Shown here in pieces: positions 44,303 to 52,578 of a DNA stretch of 64,000 nucleotides (positions are counted from its first letter, which is position 1; every line of letters starts with the position of its first letter). This stretch comes from Fodinibius salipaludis (lineage in GTDB: Bacteria > Bacteroidota > Rhodothermia > Balneolales > Balneolaceae). The stretch is taken from NCBI RefSeq assembly GCF_002287075.1, contig NZ_NSKE01000006.1, forward strand, positions 186,001-250,000, written 5' to 3'. Under the pieces are notes generated by a model that had not been told where the DNA came from, did no database searches, and saw only the letters and a list, made by a program, of their open reading frames with translations. Both the position numbers and the translations under genes were made by a program.

Positions 44303-45115
44303 TTACTCTTTACCATACTTTAACCTTCTAACAAATGCAAACACCTCATCCTTCCATCCTTCTTCCGGATAATGTTCCCGGATAGTATCAATTAATGCGC
44401 TCCCAACAATAAAACCGTCCATATCGGCCGCTATACGCTGGGCATCTTCATGCGATTTAATCCCAAAACCAACCATTTTGGGATTTTTGGTTACATTCTT
44501 CTTCACGCGATCAATAAACTTCTGGACAGACTTCGCTACCTCATCGCCCTCACGTGCTCCTGTAACGCCTGTTACCGACACACAGTATACAAATCCCTGC
44601 GATTGTTGATCAATCTTTCGCATACGCTCATCAGAAGTATTCGGAGCAACCAAATAGATTATCGGCAATCCCTTTTTCTCGGCTTCCTCTTTCAAAATAC
44701 CCGACTCTTCTATCGGAATATCCGGGATGATCAACCCATCTACTCCAACATTAGCGGCATCCCTACAAAAAGCTTCTACGCCATATCGCAAAACCGGATT
44801 GATATACCCCATCAAAATAATGGGAATCTGTGATTTCTCCCGCACTTGCTCTACAATATGCAGGATTTTCTTCATCGTGATCCCCTGCTCAATCGCAACA
44901 TTGCTTGAATATTGAATAGTGGGTCCGTCGGCCAAAGGATCACTGAACGGCATACCCAGCTCAACTAAGTCCACTCCGTTTTCTTCAAATCCCAAAATAA
45001 GATCAACAGTGGCTTGTGGATCGGGATAGCCTGCCGTTAGAAAAAGGCTCATGATCTTTTCAGAGCCATCGTGACGTTCAAAAAGTTGTGCTATTCTGTT
45101 TTCTGTCTGAATCAT
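44303..45115 (-). CDS. trpA: Tryptophan synthase alpha subunit
   Basis: Cleaves indole-3-glycerol phosphate to indole and glyceraldehyde-3-phosphate, passing indole to the beta subunit. The 270-residue TIM barrel has catalytic Glu52 and Asp63 in VELGMPFSDPLADGPTIQ, and GFGIKSHEDA at the phosphate site. It is the last trp gene of the operon, 41 bases after trpB. Confidence 0.97.
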   Translation of the reverse strand: MIQTENRIAQLFERHDGSEKIMSLFLTAGYPDPQATVDLILGFEENGVDLVELGMPFSDPLADGPTIQYSSNVAIEQGITMKKILHIVEQVREKSQIPIILMGYINPVLRYGVEAFCRDAANVGVDGLIIPDIPIEESGILKEEAEKKGLPIIYLVAPNTSDERMRKIDQQSQGFVYCVSVTGVTGAREGDEVAKSVQKFIDRVKKNVTKNPKMVGFGIKSHEDAQRIAADMDGFIVGSALIDTIREHYPEEGWKDEVFAFVRRLKYGKE

Positions 45116-45156: not shown

Positions 45157-46344
45157 CTAAATATTTCTTGAGATAGTGCCCATATCTTTATCACCGCGAC
45201 CGGAGCAGTTCAATACTACAATTTCATCTTTGGATGTCTTAGGCATCAGCTCTTCTAAATACGCTATCGCGTGAGCCGTTTCGAGTGCCGGAATAATGCC
45301 TTCGGTTTCAGAAAGGAGTTTAACTCCCTCCATCGCCTGATCATCTGTGATGGCTTTATACTTCACGCGCTTGGTTTTATGCAAATACGAGTGCTCGGGA
45401 CCAATGCCCGGATAATCGAGTCCGGCTGATATCGAGTGAGCCAGCTGAATTTGTCCTTCAGAATTATGCAACAGATAGCTCATAGATCCATGCAGAACAC
45501 CGGGTTGGCCAATGGTAAGCGTTGCAGCCGTTTTATCCGTATCGGCACCTAATCCAGCGGCTTCAAGTCCATACATTTGCACCGATTCATCTTCGATATA
45601 GGGATAAAAAATGCCTATCGCATTCGATCCTCCTCCCACGCAGGCCAGCAGATAATCCGGGGCTTCCCGTCCTTCGGCCTCGGCCAACTGCTTGCGGGTT
45701 TCATCCCCTATCACGCGGTGAAAGTTGCGCACCATCTTAGGATACGGATGAGGTCCCACGACCGATCCAATAATATAAAATGTATCTTCAACATTGGTCA
45801 CCCAGTCACGAATGGCTTCGTTGGTGGCATCCTTCAGGGTCTGTGAACCACTGGTAACAGGACGTACTTCAGTGCCAAGCAATCGCATTCGCTCAACATT
45901 CAATTTTTGACGCTCCATATCCTCGGCTCCCATATACACGATACAATCCACACCAAACTTAGCACAGGCTGTGGCGGTAGCCACCCCATGCTGCCCGGCC
46001 CCTGTCTCGGCAATAATGCGATCCTTACCCATACGCTGTGCCAGCAGAATCTGCCCGATAGCATTATTGATCTTATGCGCCCCGGTATGACACAGATCTT
46101 CTCGCTTGAGATAAATCTTTGCTTTCCCATAATGATCAGTCAATCTATTGGCATAAGTCAGCTTTGTGGGACGCCCCACGTATTCATTTAGTAGCTGATG
46201 GTATTCTTTCTGGAAGATGTCATCATTCCAGGCGTCCTCGTAGGCTGCTTCCAATTCCTCTAACACAGGAATCAAAATTTCCGGGACAAACTTGCCTCCA
46301 AAATCACCGTAATACCCTTCCTTCGTCGGTAAATCGTACTTCAT
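45157..46344 (-). CDS. trpB: Tryptophan synthase beta subunit
   Basis: PLP enzyme joining indole and Ser to give Trp. The 395-residue protein has the PLP lysine (about Lys91) in [12 protein letters not shown] and the phosphate-binding [10 protein letters not shown]. The start also holds the conserved [13 protein letters not shown]. The gap upstream (46345-46450) contains a palindromic REP-like unit and a low-complexity stretch. Confidence 0.98.
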
Positions 46345-46405: not shown

Positions 46406-46455
46406 TGTTCTCACTCAATACTCATCACTCACTACTCACACTACTCAATACTACA
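46406..46455. repeat. Degenerate low-complexity ACTCA-rich tract
   Basis: An imperfect run of CACTACTCA/ACTCAATA-like words fills the end of the trpF-trpB gap. There is no perfect tandem unit and no coding potential. Confidence 0.4.
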
Positions 46456-47125
46456 ATTCTCCAACCTCCTGCTTTTCCCAGATATCTCGCATCTCTTCCA
46501 TAAACGCATCCACCTTGTCAAAATCTTTAACTCCGGCTTTAGCTTCCAATCCGCTCGAAACATCCACTGCATACGGATGAACCTGCTTGCAAGCCGATCG
46601 AATATTTTCAGGATTCAACCCCCCGGCCAAAAAATACGGCACGCCCCGGGAAACCTCATCCAAAATAGACCAGTCAAACGCCTGTCCCGTTCCACCCCAC
46701 TTTCCATCCACTTTCGTATCAAAAAGCAAATATTCAACATGATCCAAAAAAGGCTCAATACGCTTATTCAAATCCGAGCTTGTATCTCCCTCCTCCACGT
46801 GAATAGCTTTAATCACCGACTTATCTACCAATGAGCAATAATCAGGATTTTCGTCACCATGCAACTGTACAAAATCGATGCCCGTCTGACGTGCAATCAT
46901 ATTGACATCGTCCAGCGGCTGATTAACAAAAACACCTACGCACTCAAGCCCGTGCAACCAGTTAATCATCGCACCCGCCTTTGCAGGCGAAACATAGCGG
47001 GGGCTATCTCCATAGAACACAAACCCCATATAATGTGCCAGTGCCCCCGAAACAAATCGGGCATCTTCCAGCGTGGTAATTCCACAAATTTTTACTTTCG
47101 TTCGTTCTTCCGGATCTGCAAACAT
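46451..47125 (-). CDS. trpF: Phosphoribosylanthranilate isomerase
   Basis: Amadori rearrangement of phosphoribosylanthranilate in Trp synthesis. The 224-residue barrel starts KVKICGITTLEDARF and has VQLHGDE and LLFDTKVDGKWGGTG, all TrpF signatures. It is followed by trpB after 106 bases and preceded by trpC with 18 bases between. Confidence 0.96.
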   Translation of the reverse strand: MFADPEERTKVKICGITTLEDARFVSGALAHYMGFVFYGDSPRYVSPAKAGAMINWLHGLECVGVFVNQPLDDVNMIARQTGIDFVQLHGDENPDYCSLVDKSVIKAIHVEEGDTSSDLNKRIEPFLDHVEYLLFDTKVDGKWGGTGQAFDWSILDEVSRGVPYFLAGGLNPENIRSACKQVHPYAVDVSSGLEAKAGVKDFDKVDAFMEEMRDIWEKQEVGEL

Positions 47126-47143: not shown

Positions 47144-47941
47144 TTAAATTAATTTCTGTAATTCCGATTTCATATTCTTGACCGCTTTGCCGGGATCAGG
47201 TTGACGCATAAAGTACTCCCCAATCAGTGCTGCATGGATACCCTCAGCAAAAAGTAGATTTAAATTTTCCGGGCTGCTTAACCCACTCTCAGAGACAAGT
47301 ACCATATCCTCGGGAGCCTTATGCAGAAGTTCAATACCGCGATGCAAATCTACTTCAAAAGATCTCAAATCACGATTATTGACGCCTAAAATATCAACAT
47401 GCTCAAAGTTAACATATTCGATATCTTCTTCAGAATAACATTCGACCAAGGCCTGTAAGCCAAACTCTTTTGTGGCGTGTAAAAGTTCGTCAAGCTGACT
47501 TCCCTCCGTAATCGTTGCAATCAATAACACCGCATCCGCGCCATAAGCCTTTGCTTCTTTTACCTGATAGGGATCAACAATAAAATCCTTTCTTAGTAGT
47601 GGAATGGACACTTCTTCAGAAGCAATTTTCAAGTATTTAAGACTCCCTTTGAACGCAGGCTCGTCAGTCAACACAGAGATAGCCGAAGCCCCTCCCTCCT
47701 GGTATTGCCCCGCTATTTTTTGCGGATCAAAATCGGGACGAATCAATCCTTTCGAGGGAGATGCTTTTTTAATTTCTGCTATAATAGCCACATCATTTTC
47801 GATCTGCAGCGCCTCCCCGAAATTTCGGGGAGGCTGCTCAAAAAGCTCCATATCTCCAAGATCATTAAAACTTACCTTATCCTTTCGTTTTTTAAGATCA
47901 ATTTTCGTCTGTTCAACGATTTCTTCTAAAATATTGGGCAT
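47144..47941 (-). CDS. trpC: Indole-3-glycerol phosphate synthase
   Basis: Ring closure in Trp synthesis. The 265-residue barrel has catalytic Glu56 and Lys58 in AEIKKASPSKG, with KDFIVDPYQV and LGVNNRDL. It is a separate gene, not the TrpCF fusion of enterics. It begins 9 bases after the trpD stop. Confidence 0.97.
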   Translation of the reverse strand: MPNILEEIVEQTKIDLKKRKDKVSFNDLGDMELFEQPPRNFGEALQIENDVAIIAEIKKASPSKGLIRPDFDPQKIAGQYQEGGASAISVLTDEPAFKGSLKYLKIASEEVSIPLLRKDFIVDPYQVKEAKAYGADAVLLIATITEGSQLDELLHATKEFGLQALVECYSEEDIEYVNFEHVDILGVNNRDLRSFEVDLHRGIELLHKAPEDMVLVSESGLSSPENLNLLFAEGIHAALIGEYFMRQPDPGKAVKNMKSELQKLI

Positions 47942-47950
47942 AATATATAC

Positions 47951-48991
47951 TTATTTCGCAGCGTCATTAGAAGCTTCAACATATCTGTCCAGTGCTTTTT
48001 TTGCTTTGCCGGATCGCAGACTTTCTTCCGCCAGTTTACGTGCTTCGGTCAGGTGATTCACTTTACCGGAGGCGTGAATTCCAAACGTAGCATTCAACAG
48101 AATAACATCCCGCTGGGGATCGGTGGATTTATTATCTAAAATATTACGAATAATATTCGCATTGTATTTAGCATCACCGCCCTGCAAGGATTCTAAATCC
48201 GTCCACTCAAAATCAAGCGATTTAGGATCGAAGGTCGTCGACTCTTTCACCATATTGTGATTGAGCTCGTAAATCTCCGACTGAGAGGCCAAACTCACTT
48301 CATCCAAGCCATCATGGGCATTTACCGTATAGGCAAAGTCAGTATCCAGATTTGCAAGGATGTGGGCGATTTCCCGGGCCACCTCCCTGCTGTAAGCACC
48401 GATCATCTGACGCTTTACTCCGGCCGGATTTAGCAACGGTCCCAGAATATTGAAAAAGGTTCGAATGCCCATCGTGCGACGGGCCGGCATCACGTGCTTC
48501 ATGGCAGGATGGAAATTGGGAGCAAACATAAATACGAGTCCCGCCTCTCCAAACACTTGTTCAACCTGCTTTTTATCTAAATCGATTACCGCGCCGAGTT
48601 CTTCCAAAACATCAGCACTACCACTTTTGCTCGAAACACTTCGATTGCCATGTTTGAGAACCGGAACGTCGGCACCGGCCACCACAAACATCGAGGCCGT
48701 AGAAATATTGAACGTTCCGGAACTGTCTCCGCCGGTTCCACAAAGATCGACCGCACCATCTACATTTACCTCCGGCTTTATAGCTGCTTCACGCATCACA
48801 CGCACAAAAGCAGTAAGCTCTTGAGTGGTTTCACCCTTGCTCCGCATAGCGGTTAAAAAAGCGGCCACTTGCTCATTGGGAACCCCTCCCCTTACAATTC
48901 TTTGAAGTGCACTTTTGGCCTCATTTGAATCGAGATTTTCCCGACGAATTAACTTATTTAATATTGAGCTGAATTCTATAACCTTCTGCAT
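47951..48991 (-). CDS. trpD: Anthranilate phosphoribosyltransferase
   Basis: Adds phosphoribosyl to anthranilate. The 346-residue protein has the PRPP-binding GTGGDSSGTFN (85-95), KHGNRSVSSKSGSADVLEELG, and HPAMKHVMPARRTMGIRTFFN. It is not fused to TrpG, unlike in E. coli. Confidence 0.97.
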   Translation of the reverse strand: MQKVIEFSSILNKLIRRENLDSNEAKSALQRIVRGGVPNEQVAAFLTAMRSKGETTQELTAFVRVMREAAIKPEVNVDGAVDLCGTGGDSSGTFNISTASMFVVAGADVPVLKHGNRSVSSKSGSADVLEELGAVIDLDKKQVEQVFGEAGLVFMFAPNFHPAMKHVMPARRTMGIRTFFNILGPLLNPAGVKRQMIGAYSREVAREIAHILANLDTDFAYTVNAHDGLDEVSLASQSEIYELNHNMVKESTTFDPKSLDFEWTDLESLQGGDAKYNANIIRNILDNKSTDPQRDVILLNATFGIHASGKVNHLTEARKLAEESLRSGKAKKALDRYVEASNDAAK

Positions 48992-49055: not shown

Positions 49056-49637
49056 TTATTTTGCTATTTCATATTTCAATGCAAGCCAGTTTTTGATGAT
49101 ATTGGGTCCTTCTGTTGTAAGGATGCTTTCGGGATGAAACTGGATTCCTTCAAGTGGATATTCACGGTGTCGCAGTCCCATAATCACTTGATCATCACTA
49201 TGAGCTGAAATTTCCAACTCACACGGTATACTATCGGGATCGAGCACCAATGAATGGTAGCGAGTAGCAGTGAAATTATCCGGGATATTCCCAAATACTG
49301 ATTTACCATCGTGCTTAATGGCGGATGTCTTTCCATGCATCAATTTTGGAGCGTGAATAACCTTGCCGCCAAACACTTCTCCAATCGCCTGGTGACCAAG
49401 ACAAACGCCTAAAATCGGCGTCTCATGCCCCAACTCTTTAATGATCGGCTCCGTAATCCCTGCATCAGCAGGACGTCCAGGACCAGGCGAAATGAGTATC
49501 CTGTCGGGATTTAACTCTTTTACTTGCTCCACGGTGAGATCATCATTACGGATCACTCGGTAGTCATCCGTGTACTCCGCCACGATATGCACCAGGTTAT
49601 AAGTAAAGGAATCGTAATTGTCGATGATTAAAATCAT
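49056..49637 (-). CDS. trpG: Anthranilate synthase glutaminase subunit
   Basis: Supplies ammonia to TrpE. The 193-residue class I amidotransferase has the nucleophile Cys79 in GVCLGHQAIGE, the SPGPGRP block, and His/Glu in IQFHPESIL. It overlaps the trpS stop by four bases (ATGA), so translation of the two is coupled. Confidence 0.97.
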   Translation of the reverse strand: MILIIDNYDSFTYNLVHIVAEYTDDYRVIRNDDLTVEQVKELNPDRILISPGPGRPADAGITEPIIKELGHETPILGVCLGHQAIGEVFGGKVIHAPKLMHGKTSAIKHDGKSVFGNIPDNFTATRYHSLVLDPDSIPCELEISAHSDDQVIMGLRHREYPLEGIQFHPESILTTEGPNIIKNWLALKYEIAK

Positions 49638-50695
49638 TGTAAAGCTTCTTTAAGCTTAATTTTATCAATCCTACTAGATAATTTATCTATCCTCGCTTTA
49701 TGACTATTTGTTGTGAAATAATGTCCCCTAAATAAACCAACAGCTTCACGTACTGGTCCCATAACCTTTTCAGCTCTTTTTCTTGCTTTTCTTCCACCTT
49801 CAACTAGAATTTCAACTACCGTATCCAAATCCTGTTCCAGTTCTTTACGCCGTTCTCTGGCTTCCGCGAAATATTCTTCAATCATACCCAACAACTCTTT
49901 CTTAGCATGACCGTACCCATACCCCCCGGCCCGATACTTCTCAGCGATCTCATTCTGTTTCTCTTCATCGGCAAACAGTTTGATCAACGCAAACACATTA
50001 CAACTTTCCGGATCTTTGGGTTCATCCAACGGCGTGGAATCAGTCTCTATCGACATCACTTTTTTCTTTAGCTCTTTGCCCTCATCAAAAATACCAATGG
50101 TATTGCCGTAGGACTTGCTCATCTTCTGTCCGTCTATACCGGGCACCACCGCCACAGATTCCAAAATGTATGGTTCCGGCAGCTTCAAATATTCATCGCC
50201 ATAATTGTGATTGAACTTACCGGCCAAATCGCGACAAATTTCAATATTCTGCTTCTGATCCTGTCCCACAGGCACCAAGTCAGCATTGTACATTAAAATA
50301 TCTGCTGCCTGCAGGATCGGATAGGTAAACAAACCTATATTCGGTTTCAGTCCCTGTGCTACCTTATCTTTATATGCTACACCTTTCTCCATCAGACTAA
50401 CGGGACAAAAAGTGCCTAAAATCCAGGCCAATTCCGCATGCTGAGGTACATCACTCTGGGCAAAAAATGTCGCTTTATCAGGATCCAATCCCAATGCCAG
50501 GTAATCGAGTGCTACATCGATCGTATTCTGATAAATTTCTTCACCGTCATTGATGGATGTCAATGAGTGATAGTTCGCAATAAAATAAAAGGCATCGCCC
50601 TCTTCCTGCATCTGTATATGCTGACGCAGGGCTCCAAAGTAGTTGCCTAAATGAAGTTTTCCTGACGATTGTATACCTGATAATATTGTTTTCAT
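49634..50695 (-). CDS. trpS: Tryptophan--tRNA ligase inside the trp operon
   Basis: Charges tRNA-Trp. The 353-residue class I synthetase has the HIGH-type HLGN (15-18) and KMSKS (191-195) in GQKMSKSYGNTI. Its place between trpE and trpG, with ATGA overlap to trpG, puts it under the trp attenuator, so Trp starvation should raise both Trp synthesis and its synthetase. A C-terminal extension (about residues 270-353) is rich in Arg/Lys but within family range. A palindromic repeat pair lies in the gap before it. Confidence 0.96.
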   Translation of the reverse strand: MKTILSGIQSSGKLHLGNYFGALRQHIQMQEEGDAFYFIANYHSLTSINDGEEIYQNTIDVALDYLALGLDPDKATFFAQSDVPQHAELAWILGTFCPVSLMEKGVAYKDKVAQGLKPNIGLFTYPILQAADILMYNADLVPVGQDQKQNIEICRDLAGKFNHNYGDEYLKLPEPYILESVAVVPGIDGQKMSKSYGNTIGIFDEGKELKKKVMSIETDSTPLDEPKDPESCNVFALIKLFADEEKQNEIAEKYRAGGYGYGHAKKELLGMIEEYFAEARERRKELEQDLDTVVEILVEGGRKARKRAEKVMGPVREAVGLFRGHYFTTNSHKARIDKLSSRIDKIKLKEALQ

Positions 50696-50740: not shown

Positions 50741-50833
50741 GTGTCATCCTGAATTCATTTCAGGATCTATCAATATTATTCTTTCAAATGCTGAAACCCC
50801 GATTAGTCGGGACGCGGCAAGTTCAGCATGACA
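50741..50833. repeat. Paired REP-like palindromes, trpE-trpS gap (copies B and B2)
   Basis: First unit: ATCCTGAA-TTCAT-TTCAGGAT (50746-50766). Second unit: ATGCTGAA (50788-50795) pairing with TTCAGCAT (50822-50829) around an inner CCCCGATTAGTCGGG hairpin. The whole block is flanked by TGTCAT and ATGACA in inverted orientation. The second unit shares its inner sequence with the copy before trpE. Confidence 0.85.
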
Positions 50834-50841
50834 TTTTTAAA

Positions 50842-52314
50842 TTAATCCGTTATCGACAAGGCCACGCTTAATGCCTCTACCAGCGCATCGGCCTTATTTT
50901 GGGTTTCCACATATTCTTTTTCGGGATCACTGTCGGCCACAATACCAGCCCCCGCCTGAATATACACTTTTGAATCGGTAACAAGCATGGTACGAATCAC
51001 AATACAGGTATCCATATTGCCCGAAAAATCAAAATAACCCACGGCTCCCGCATAAGGACCGCGTTTTGTTGGTTCCAGTTCATCAATGATTTCCATAGCA
51101 CGAATTTTCGGTGCCCCACTGACCGTGCCCGCCGGGAAGCAGTGTTTAAGTGCATCCACTGCTGTTTTTTTATCAGCCAATTCGCCCTTCACATCCGATA
51201 CAATATGCATCACATGCGAATATCGCTCGATCACCTGCTCGCGGACCGGCTTGACGGTAGCAGGTTTACACACGCGCGATAAGTCATTACGTCCCAAATC
51301 AACCAGCATTACGTGCTCGGCAATTTCCTTGGGATCGTTCTTAAGATCTTGCTCAAGTTCCAAATCCTCTTCAGGAGTTTTCCCACGCGGACGTGTACCG
51401 GCAATAGGTAGGAGTTGAGCCGTCTCATCCTGCACGCGGACCAAAACCTCAGGCGACGATCCGATCAATCCAAAATCATCAAAATCCAAAAAGAACAAAT
51501 ACGGCGAAGGGTTCACCATTCGCAGGGCGCGATACAACATAAAGCGATCTCCACTGAAATCCGTTTCAAATCGCTGCGATAACACCACCTGGAATATATC
51601 TCCTTCATAAATATATTCTTTGGCCTTCTCAACCATGGCCTCAAATTCATGCTGTTCGATATTGCTGGTCAGTTTATCCAGATTAATTGAAAAGGAAAAG
51701 GAATCCTCCGATCGTCCCGGCTTATAGACTAACTCCTCCATCCGATCAAGTGACTGCTGCGCTTCATCATATAATTCACCAACTGATTTATCTGGCTCAT
51801 CCGTGAACACCGTTTTGATGATGATCACCTGCTGCTTAACGTGATCGAAGGCGTAGACTTCATCATAAAACGCCCAGATGGCTTCAGGAATATTTAAATC
51901 GTCGGGGGGCGTTTCTCCGAGCTCCTCTACTTCACGAACTGTATCATAGGAAGAAAATCCGACGGCTCCACCGGTTAAACGAGGCAAGTCAGGCAACTTG
52001 GGTTCGCTATGCTGCGTCGTTAGTTCTTTAAGTGCTTCAAAATACGGTTGGTCGAGGACTTTTTTGTGAGCATCTCTCTGCAAGGTTACCTGTTCCCCGT
52101 CGTACTCCAAAACTTGGTAGGGATTGCGACCCAAAAAGGAATACCGTGCAACTTGCTCCCCTCCTTCTACTGACTCCAACAAAAAAGGATACTCAGCACC
52201 TTTTCGCAGTGATAAAAAGAGGGAAACTGGCGTCAGAACATCAGCCATCAGTCGCCGATAAACAGGCACAGCTGTGTAATCTTTTGTTAATTTTTTAAAC
52301 TTTTCTAAATCCAT
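50842..52314 (-). CDS. trpE: Anthranilate synthase component I
   Basis: Converts chorismate and ammonia to anthranilate, the committed step. The 490-residue protein has the Trp-feedback site region (LESVEGGEQVARYSFLG), the catalytic VVLSQRFETDF and AGTRPRGKTPEEDLELE, and C-terminal FPAGTVSGAPKIRAMEII. It is the first structural gene of the operon. The leader upstream holds a terminator, a leader peptide with three Trp codons and a REP-like unit. Confidence 0.97.
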   Translation of the reverse strand: MDLEKFKKLTKDYTAVPVYRRLMADVLTPVSLFLSLRKGAEYPFLLESVEGGEQVARYSFLGRNPYQVLEYDGEQVTLQRDAHKKVLDQPYFEALKELTTQHSEPKLPDLPRLTGGAVGFSSYDTVREVEELGETPPDDLNIPEAIWAFYDEVYAFDHVKQQVIIIKTVFTDEPDKSVGELYDEAQQSLDRMEELVYKPGRSEDSFSFSINLDKLTSNIEQHEFEAMVEKAKEYIYEGDIFQVVLSQRFETDFSGDRFMLYRALRMVNPSPYLFFLDFDDFGLIGSSPEVLVRVQDETAQLLPIAGTRPRGKTPEEDLELEQDLKNDPKEIAEHVMLVDLGRNDLSRVCKPATVKPVREQVIERYSHVMHIVSDVKGELADKKTAVDALKHCFPAGTVSGAPKIRAMEIIDELEPTKRGPYAGAVGYFDFSGNMDTCIVIRTMLVTDSKVYIQAGAGIVADSDPEKEYVETQNKADALVEALSVALSITD

Positions 52315-52329
52315 TTTAGATTATTTTAT

Positions 52330-52378
52330 ATCCTGAAACCCCGATTAGTCGGAACACGGCAAGTTCAGGATGACATGA
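52330..52378. repeat. REP-like palindrome before trpE (copy C)
   Basis: ATCCTGAA (52330-52337) pairs with TTCAGGAT (52364-52371) around an inner CCCCGATTAGTCGG hairpin, followed by GACATG. It lies 16 bases before the trpE start, downstream of the attenuator terminator. It matches copy B2 except that the third stem pair is C-G here and G-C there. Confidence 0.8.
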
Positions 52379-52402: not shown

Positions 52403-52435
52403 AAAAAAGCCCACTCCAGTTTCCTGCAGTGGGCT
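52403..52435 (-). terminator. Trp attenuator terminator hairpin (3:4)
   Basis: Minus strand AGCCCACT (52428-52435) pairs with AGTGGGCT (52408-52415). An inner CAG-GAAA-CTG adds three pairs and a GNRA-type loop, and U-rich sequence follows (six T, G, six T). It lies between the trpL leader and trpE. The 3-strand is also complementary to sequence in the leader (see attenuator entry). Confidence 0.92.
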
Positions 52436-52462
52436 CTATAAAATTCTTTTCCTCAATCTAAC

Positions 52463-52540
52463 TCATAAAAATGCCACTGCCTGCGTATGTTGCTTAACAG
52501 GCCACCACCAACTGATATTTTTATGAGCAGATTTTTTCAT
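52463..52540 (-). CDS. trpL: Trp operon leader peptide, three Trp codons
   Basis: A 25-codon frame from ATG 52540 to TGA 52463 that begins MKKSAHKNISWWWPVKQ and ends AVAFL. TGG TGG TGG (52510-52502) are codons 11-13. It is followed, about 30 bases after its stop, by a terminator, then trpE. The ATG lies only 7 bases from the predicted -7 element, so translation is likely leaderless. The function is regulatory: Trp-tRNA shortage stalls ribosomes here and relieves termination. Confidence 0.93.
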   Translation of the reverse strand: MKKSAHKNISWWWPVKQHTQAVAFL

Positions 52541-52547
52541 AACGATC

Positions 52548-52578
52548 TGAAGATAGTATCCGACGAGGCGAAAATCAA
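52548..52578 (-). promoter_or_regulatory. Candidate trp promoter, TTG-N20-TATCTTCA
   Basis: Minus strand TATCTTCA (52548-52555) is a partial match to TAnnTTTG, with TTG (52576-52578) exactly 20 bases upstream. The ATG of the leader peptide is 7 bases after the -7 box, implying a leaderless or nearly leaderless start. Confidence 0.55.

Follow-up and report, generated by a model that had tools for sequence, protein, structure and literature searches.

Introduction

Leader-peptide attenuation is textbook knowledge. In Escherichia coli, the trpL leader has a Shine-Dalgarno-led start and encodes a 14-residue peptide with two Trp codons, the TrpR repressor also acts on the trp operon, and trpS is not included in that operon. 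In Sinorhizobium meliloti, the trpL transcript begins at the ATG, with trpL/rnTrpL acting on trpE(G) and also in trans. Trp attenuators with a double or triple UGG leader, a terminator and an antiterminator have been described in actinobacteria (Corynebacterium, Streptomyces), and in Streptomyces avermitilis a trpS gene (trpS2) lies under a predicted attenuator.

For Flavobacterium psychrophilum, "strong clues" were reported for leader-peptide attenuation before amino-acid operons, in a paper whose main text leaves tryptophan unmentioned and which counts 5.5% of mRNAs as leaderless (PMC9723704); the mechanism is thus not new to the phylum. In Bacteroides, 5′ UTRs shorter than 10 nt make up about 3.7%. 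Leaderless trpL, trpS attenuation and Flavobacterium attenuation are therefore already known or inferred. In the open-licence literature, a limited collection, no description of such attenuation was found for Balneolota or Rhodothermota, and the class-wide combination of attenuator, near-leaderless start and trpS within the operon was not found there either.

The trpE leader of Fodinibius salipaludis

The window is the whole 64,000-nt stretch of Fodinibius salipaludis DNA that was analysed, and all positions are counted within it. Its nearest trpE records are from Balneolaceae, in agreement with the guess of a Bacteroidota-like genome in the original prediction. Before trpE, on the minus strand, it carries what is very probably a ribosome-mediated transcription attenuator controlling trpE-trpS-trpG-trpD-trpC-trpF-trpB-trpA, with the following parts:

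52571–52578, minus strand: −33 element, TTGATTTT
52548–52555, minus strand: −7 box, TATCTTCA, of the Bacteroidota TAnnTTTG type
52463–52540, minus strand: leader peptide reading frame, MKKSAHKNISWWWPVKQHTQAVAFL and stop, 25 codons
52502–52510, minus strand: three Trp regulatory codons, TGG TGG TGG (Trp11–13), by direct reading
52497–52502, minus strand: strand 1, from the fold; register varies between genera
52474–52484, minus strand: strand 2, covarying with strand 3
52426–52435, minus strand: strand 3, covarying with strands 2 and 4
52408–52415, minus strand: strand 4, covarying with strand 3
52403–52436, minus strand: intrinsic terminator, hairpin of about −22 kcal/mol plus U-run, from the fold

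The prediction had named a 25-codon leader with three consecutive Trp codons, three overlapping complementarities (1:2, 2:3 and 3:4) and a perfect terminator behind the leader, and direct reading of the minus strand bore out all of them, position by position. Counting both strands, the 3.58-Mb genome contains TGGTGGTGG 29 times, which corresponds to a chance expectation of about 0.0006 per 150-nt stretch on the right strand. A Trp-rich leader reading frame was found upstream of trpE in 98 of 110 loci of the window's class, and the observation was accepted as real because of this conservation in relatives. Eight of the 98 leader starts were set by hand from the sequence, five having been missed by the automatic filter (L084, L090, L093, L122, L188) and three being loci where the filter took an earlier in-frame start (L081, L161, L162).

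The leader was absent from 12 of the 110 class loci (five in genus g11, four in family f10, plus L154, L185 and L187); in the f10 loci (L168, L170, L171, L175), trpE lies close behind another reading frame. By the reading-frame criterion alone, a Trp-rich leader also precedes trpE in Melioribacter/Ignavibacteria loci and in many other members of the phylum, and none was found before trpE in groups f21, f24 and f27, the last of which we would guess to be Chlorobium-like.

Promoter elements and predicted transcript start

Of the 98 leader-bearing loci, 95 have TTG at 30–40 nt ahead of the leader ATG (35% of control windows), and 91 have a TAnnTT that starts 11–16 nt ahead of it (7% of control windows). 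In Flavobacterium the −7 type box spans −12 to −5, and with that position the predicted start is no more than about 4 nt from the leader ATG. For the window, the probable start is at about 52543, which is 3 nt (about 0–4 nt) ahead of the ATG, so that the leader mRNA would be all but leaderless. There may be another promoter, either farther upstream or in front of trpS.

The attenuated transcript or its peptide might, in addition to attenuation, act in trans like rnTrpL/peTrpL of S. meliloti: the nearly leaderless layout is that of S. meliloti trpL, and the terminated transcript would be a free, short RNA some 140 nt long. Against such a role stands the low conservation of the peptide sequence, though alphaproteobacterial peptides diverge too, and we consider trans action improbable.

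Leader peptides across the class

Across the class the leader peptides have diverged and the Trp run alone is kept; by our own count, 87 of the 98 leaders have at least three Trp in a row. Balneolaceae leaders often have Pro directly after the run (WWWP). This is a context in which Pro can slow peptide bond formation, and it would suit a TnaC-like arrest peptide that senses free tryptophan and itself stalls the ribosome, rather than a ribosome stalled for want of charged tRNA-Trp. The residues flanking the Trp run vary across the class, however, with Leu, His, Ser, Thr, Phe or Arg in place of Pro; TnaC, moreover, requires free Trp and works on a catabolic operon, whereas here low Trp should induce, and an arrest peptide is accordingly very unlikely.

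Hairpins and covariation

For attenuation by translation of the leader, the three helices were read as follows. Helix 1:2 joins GCCUGU (52502–52497) to GCAGGC (52484–52479), with 6 bp including one G-U; helix 2:3 joins GCAGUGG (52480–52474) to CCACUGC (52432–52426), with 7 bp and no mismatch; and helix 3:4, the terminator stem, joins AGCCCACU (52435–52428) to AGUGGGCU (52415–52408), with 8 perfect bp followed by the U-run (52408–52403). Antiterminator 2:3 and terminator 3:4 are mutually exclusive, strand 3 being common to both. The folded leader RNA was 4.4 sd below dinucleotide shuffles, with no shuffle as stable, and its terminator-bearing 3′ part folded alone gave z = −4.4 against shuffles. 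Helix 1:2 alone (48-nt segment) folded no better than shuffles; the protector hairpin 1:2 is predicted in the window fold, where an 11-bp outer helix (CUCAUAAAAAU/AUUUUUAUGAG) reinforces it, and its register shifts between genera. A pattern-based terminator scanner, the rule of which permits no interior loop, did not list the terminator at 52403–52436.

A hairpin with a T-run lay between leader and gene in 98 of 98 leader-bearing loci, a count obtained with a loosened T-run threshold (L179 failed under the earlier one), and the hairpin followed the last Trp codon at a median distance of 63 nt (5–95% range 54–70, 98 loci). Covariation was assessed on an alignment of 59 Balneolaceae sequences (A1), and compensatory changes were found in both 2:3 and 3:4. 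In helix 2:3, 87.9% of cells were paired, with double changes in 3 pairs; in helix 3:4, 96.0% were paired, with double changes in 2 pairs; sliding either helix by 1–3 columns lowered pairing to 28–69%. Alignment column 94, in strand 3, varies between A and G and is still paired with columns 41 and 112. The observed covariation score was reached by 0 of 500 shuffles, in a test of a kind that related sequences inflate, and the number of double-change pairs was unexceptional against shuffles (76/500 and 207/500). In a duplex test, several relatives at order and class level had linkers that performed no better than shuffled ones. That the hairpin, a strong terminator by itself, is constitutive or merely the 3′ end of the upstream pssA unit, with the leader reading frame incidental, has next to no likelihood, the Trp run, strand 2 and spacing being kept jointly in many genera and strand 2 being tied to strand 3 by compensatory changes.

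State-dependent folding and proposed mechanism

For the ribosome-mediated switch, pairing of strand 3 with upstream RNA was modelled with transcription halted at the hairpin apex and the ribosome blocking everything before it, so that only RNA downstream of the ribosome could pair. With footprint sizes assumed, and the numbers to be read comparatively only, modelled pairing in the window was 0.76 with the ribosome stalled at Trp, 0.04 with it at the stop codon and 0.06 without a ribosome; the family medians were 0.69 (stalled) and 0.11 (stop codon), and the medians of the 98 loci 0.66 and 0.18.

The classical Yanofsky mechanism of the original prediction is backed by conservation, compensatory changes and this state-dependent folding, and as judged from sequence would run as follows. 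The ribosome would load on the nearly leaderless message, in which the leader AUG probably lies 0–4 nt from the start. With charged tRNA-Trp scarce, it would stall on the three UGG codons and cover strand 1. Strand 2 could then pair with strand 3, which would block the terminator and let the operon be transcribed. With Trp plentiful, the ribosome would reach the stop codon and cover strand 2, 3:4 would form and transcription would terminate. Without a ribosome, 1:2 would form, aided in the window by the outer helix, and termination would be expected too.

Other known regulators were searched for. A T-box was rejected (no RF00230 match genome-wide, whereas B. subtilis gave one in an identical search), as was any other Rfam family, all 4227 of which gave no leader match at the gathering threshold, nor at E up to 1 (locus L081). 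A TrpR repressor was likewise rejected, with no PF01371 match in the window genome (G000).

Operon genes and trpS

All eight trp genes, which lie in the order given above on one strand, were assigned by NCBIfam cut-offs, each with a match above its cut-off:

50842–52314, minus strand: trpE, first operon gene (TIGR00564)
49634–50695, minus strand: trpS, tryptophanyl-tRNA synthetase, second gene (TIGR00233, single match in the genome)
49056–49637, minus strand: trpG (TIGR00566)
47951–48991, minus strand: trpD (TIGR01245)
47144–47941, minus strand: trpC (NF001377)
46451–47125, minus strand: trpF (NF002298)
45157–46344, minus strand: trpB (TIGR00263)
44303–45115, minus strand: trpA (TIGR00262)

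The upstream neighbours of the leader are pssA and a phosphatidylserine decarboxylase. Within the fetched stretch, trpS stands behind trpE on the same strand in 109 of 110 loci, L185 being the exception. Of 39 relatives covered by a trpS protein search, 37 gave one match each and two gave none; a further TrpRS, too divergent for the threshold of this search, may exist. Since the operon includes trpS, Trp synthesis and the charging of tRNA-Trp should both be set by the attenuator, and trpS would be autoregulated.

Two copies of a GTCATSCTGAACTTGCCG...CGACTAATCGG repeat, none being expected by chance, were seen on the minus strand at 52341–52374, in the gap between terminator and trpE, and at 50799–50832, in the gap between trpE and trpS. 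Insertions of this type may lie behind the variable distance from terminator to trpE.

The g11 element and a possible His leader

For genus g11 (L257–L265; e.g. L258:3066–3145, minus strand), no Trp leader precedes trpE. From the predicted transcript start there is instead a 7-bp stem, GATAGYY...RRCTGTC, around a conserved CTCYAAAG, followed by ACTAGTGTTTACCC and a terminator. In an alignment of nine related sequences, with one manual adjustment to the input (the start of three rows moved on by one base), the stem showed double changes in 3–4 pairs. The element gave no Rfam match and has one confident copy per genome; a search of 92 family genomes with its covariance model at E 0.01 gave copies in g11 alone, and one weak extra match was seen in G088 (E 0.66). 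The genus appears to have lost the leader and to carry a covarying, riboswitch-like RNA before trpE instead, which may be more novel than the attenuator.

At L191 (G088, g11), a YerC-like protein of the Trp_repressor family (PF01371 match) lies directly before a hisG-like frame. A PF01371 protein was rejected as the explanation for g11, since the one in G088 is YerC-like and the four further g11 genomes tested have none.

In the window genome (L279), a His-rich short reading frame, MQKQSLHISFHSHPHHGGWPRQ, precedes hisG just after a TATCTTTG box, and a His-rich short reading frame precedes hisG also in L276, L277, L278, L280 and L281. This suggests a His leader of a similar near-leaderless kind.

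Significance and comparison with known systems

The analysis documents the trp attenuator of the classical type across a deep class of bacteria related to Bacteroidota. In their phylum, genes do not as a rule have Shine-Dalgarno starts, and few mRNAs are leaderless. The attenuator would tie the single TrpRS gene that was found to a sensor of its own product, a case for autoregulation of a charging enzyme, and genus g11 offers a natural experiment in exchanging one sensor for another. A wider proposal can be made tentatively, and is on balance doubtful: that throughout the class the sole TrpRS gene shares one nearly leaderless Trp attenuator with Trp biosynthesis, in a tRNA-charging feedback loop, and that in one genus a structured RNA has taken over the site of the ribosome sensor and may respond directly to tryptophan or a related signal.

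Like E. coli trpL, the locus has a leader reading frame with tandem Trp codons, a four-strand switch and a terminator before trpE; unlike it, the leader is by prediction nearly leaderless, contains three Trp codons among its 25, and stands in a genome without a Pfam TrpR match. With S. meliloti trpL/rnTrpL it shares tandem Trp codons, attenuation and, by prediction, a leaderless start; the S. meliloti locus differs in its alphaproteobacterial host, its target trpE(G) and its additional action in trans. In S. avermitilis, trpS2 has its own attenuator, whereas here trpS is inside the trp operon. The attenuators inferred for F. psychrophilum come from the same phylum in the GTDB sense, from a species that differs in the 5.5% share of leaderless mRNAs.
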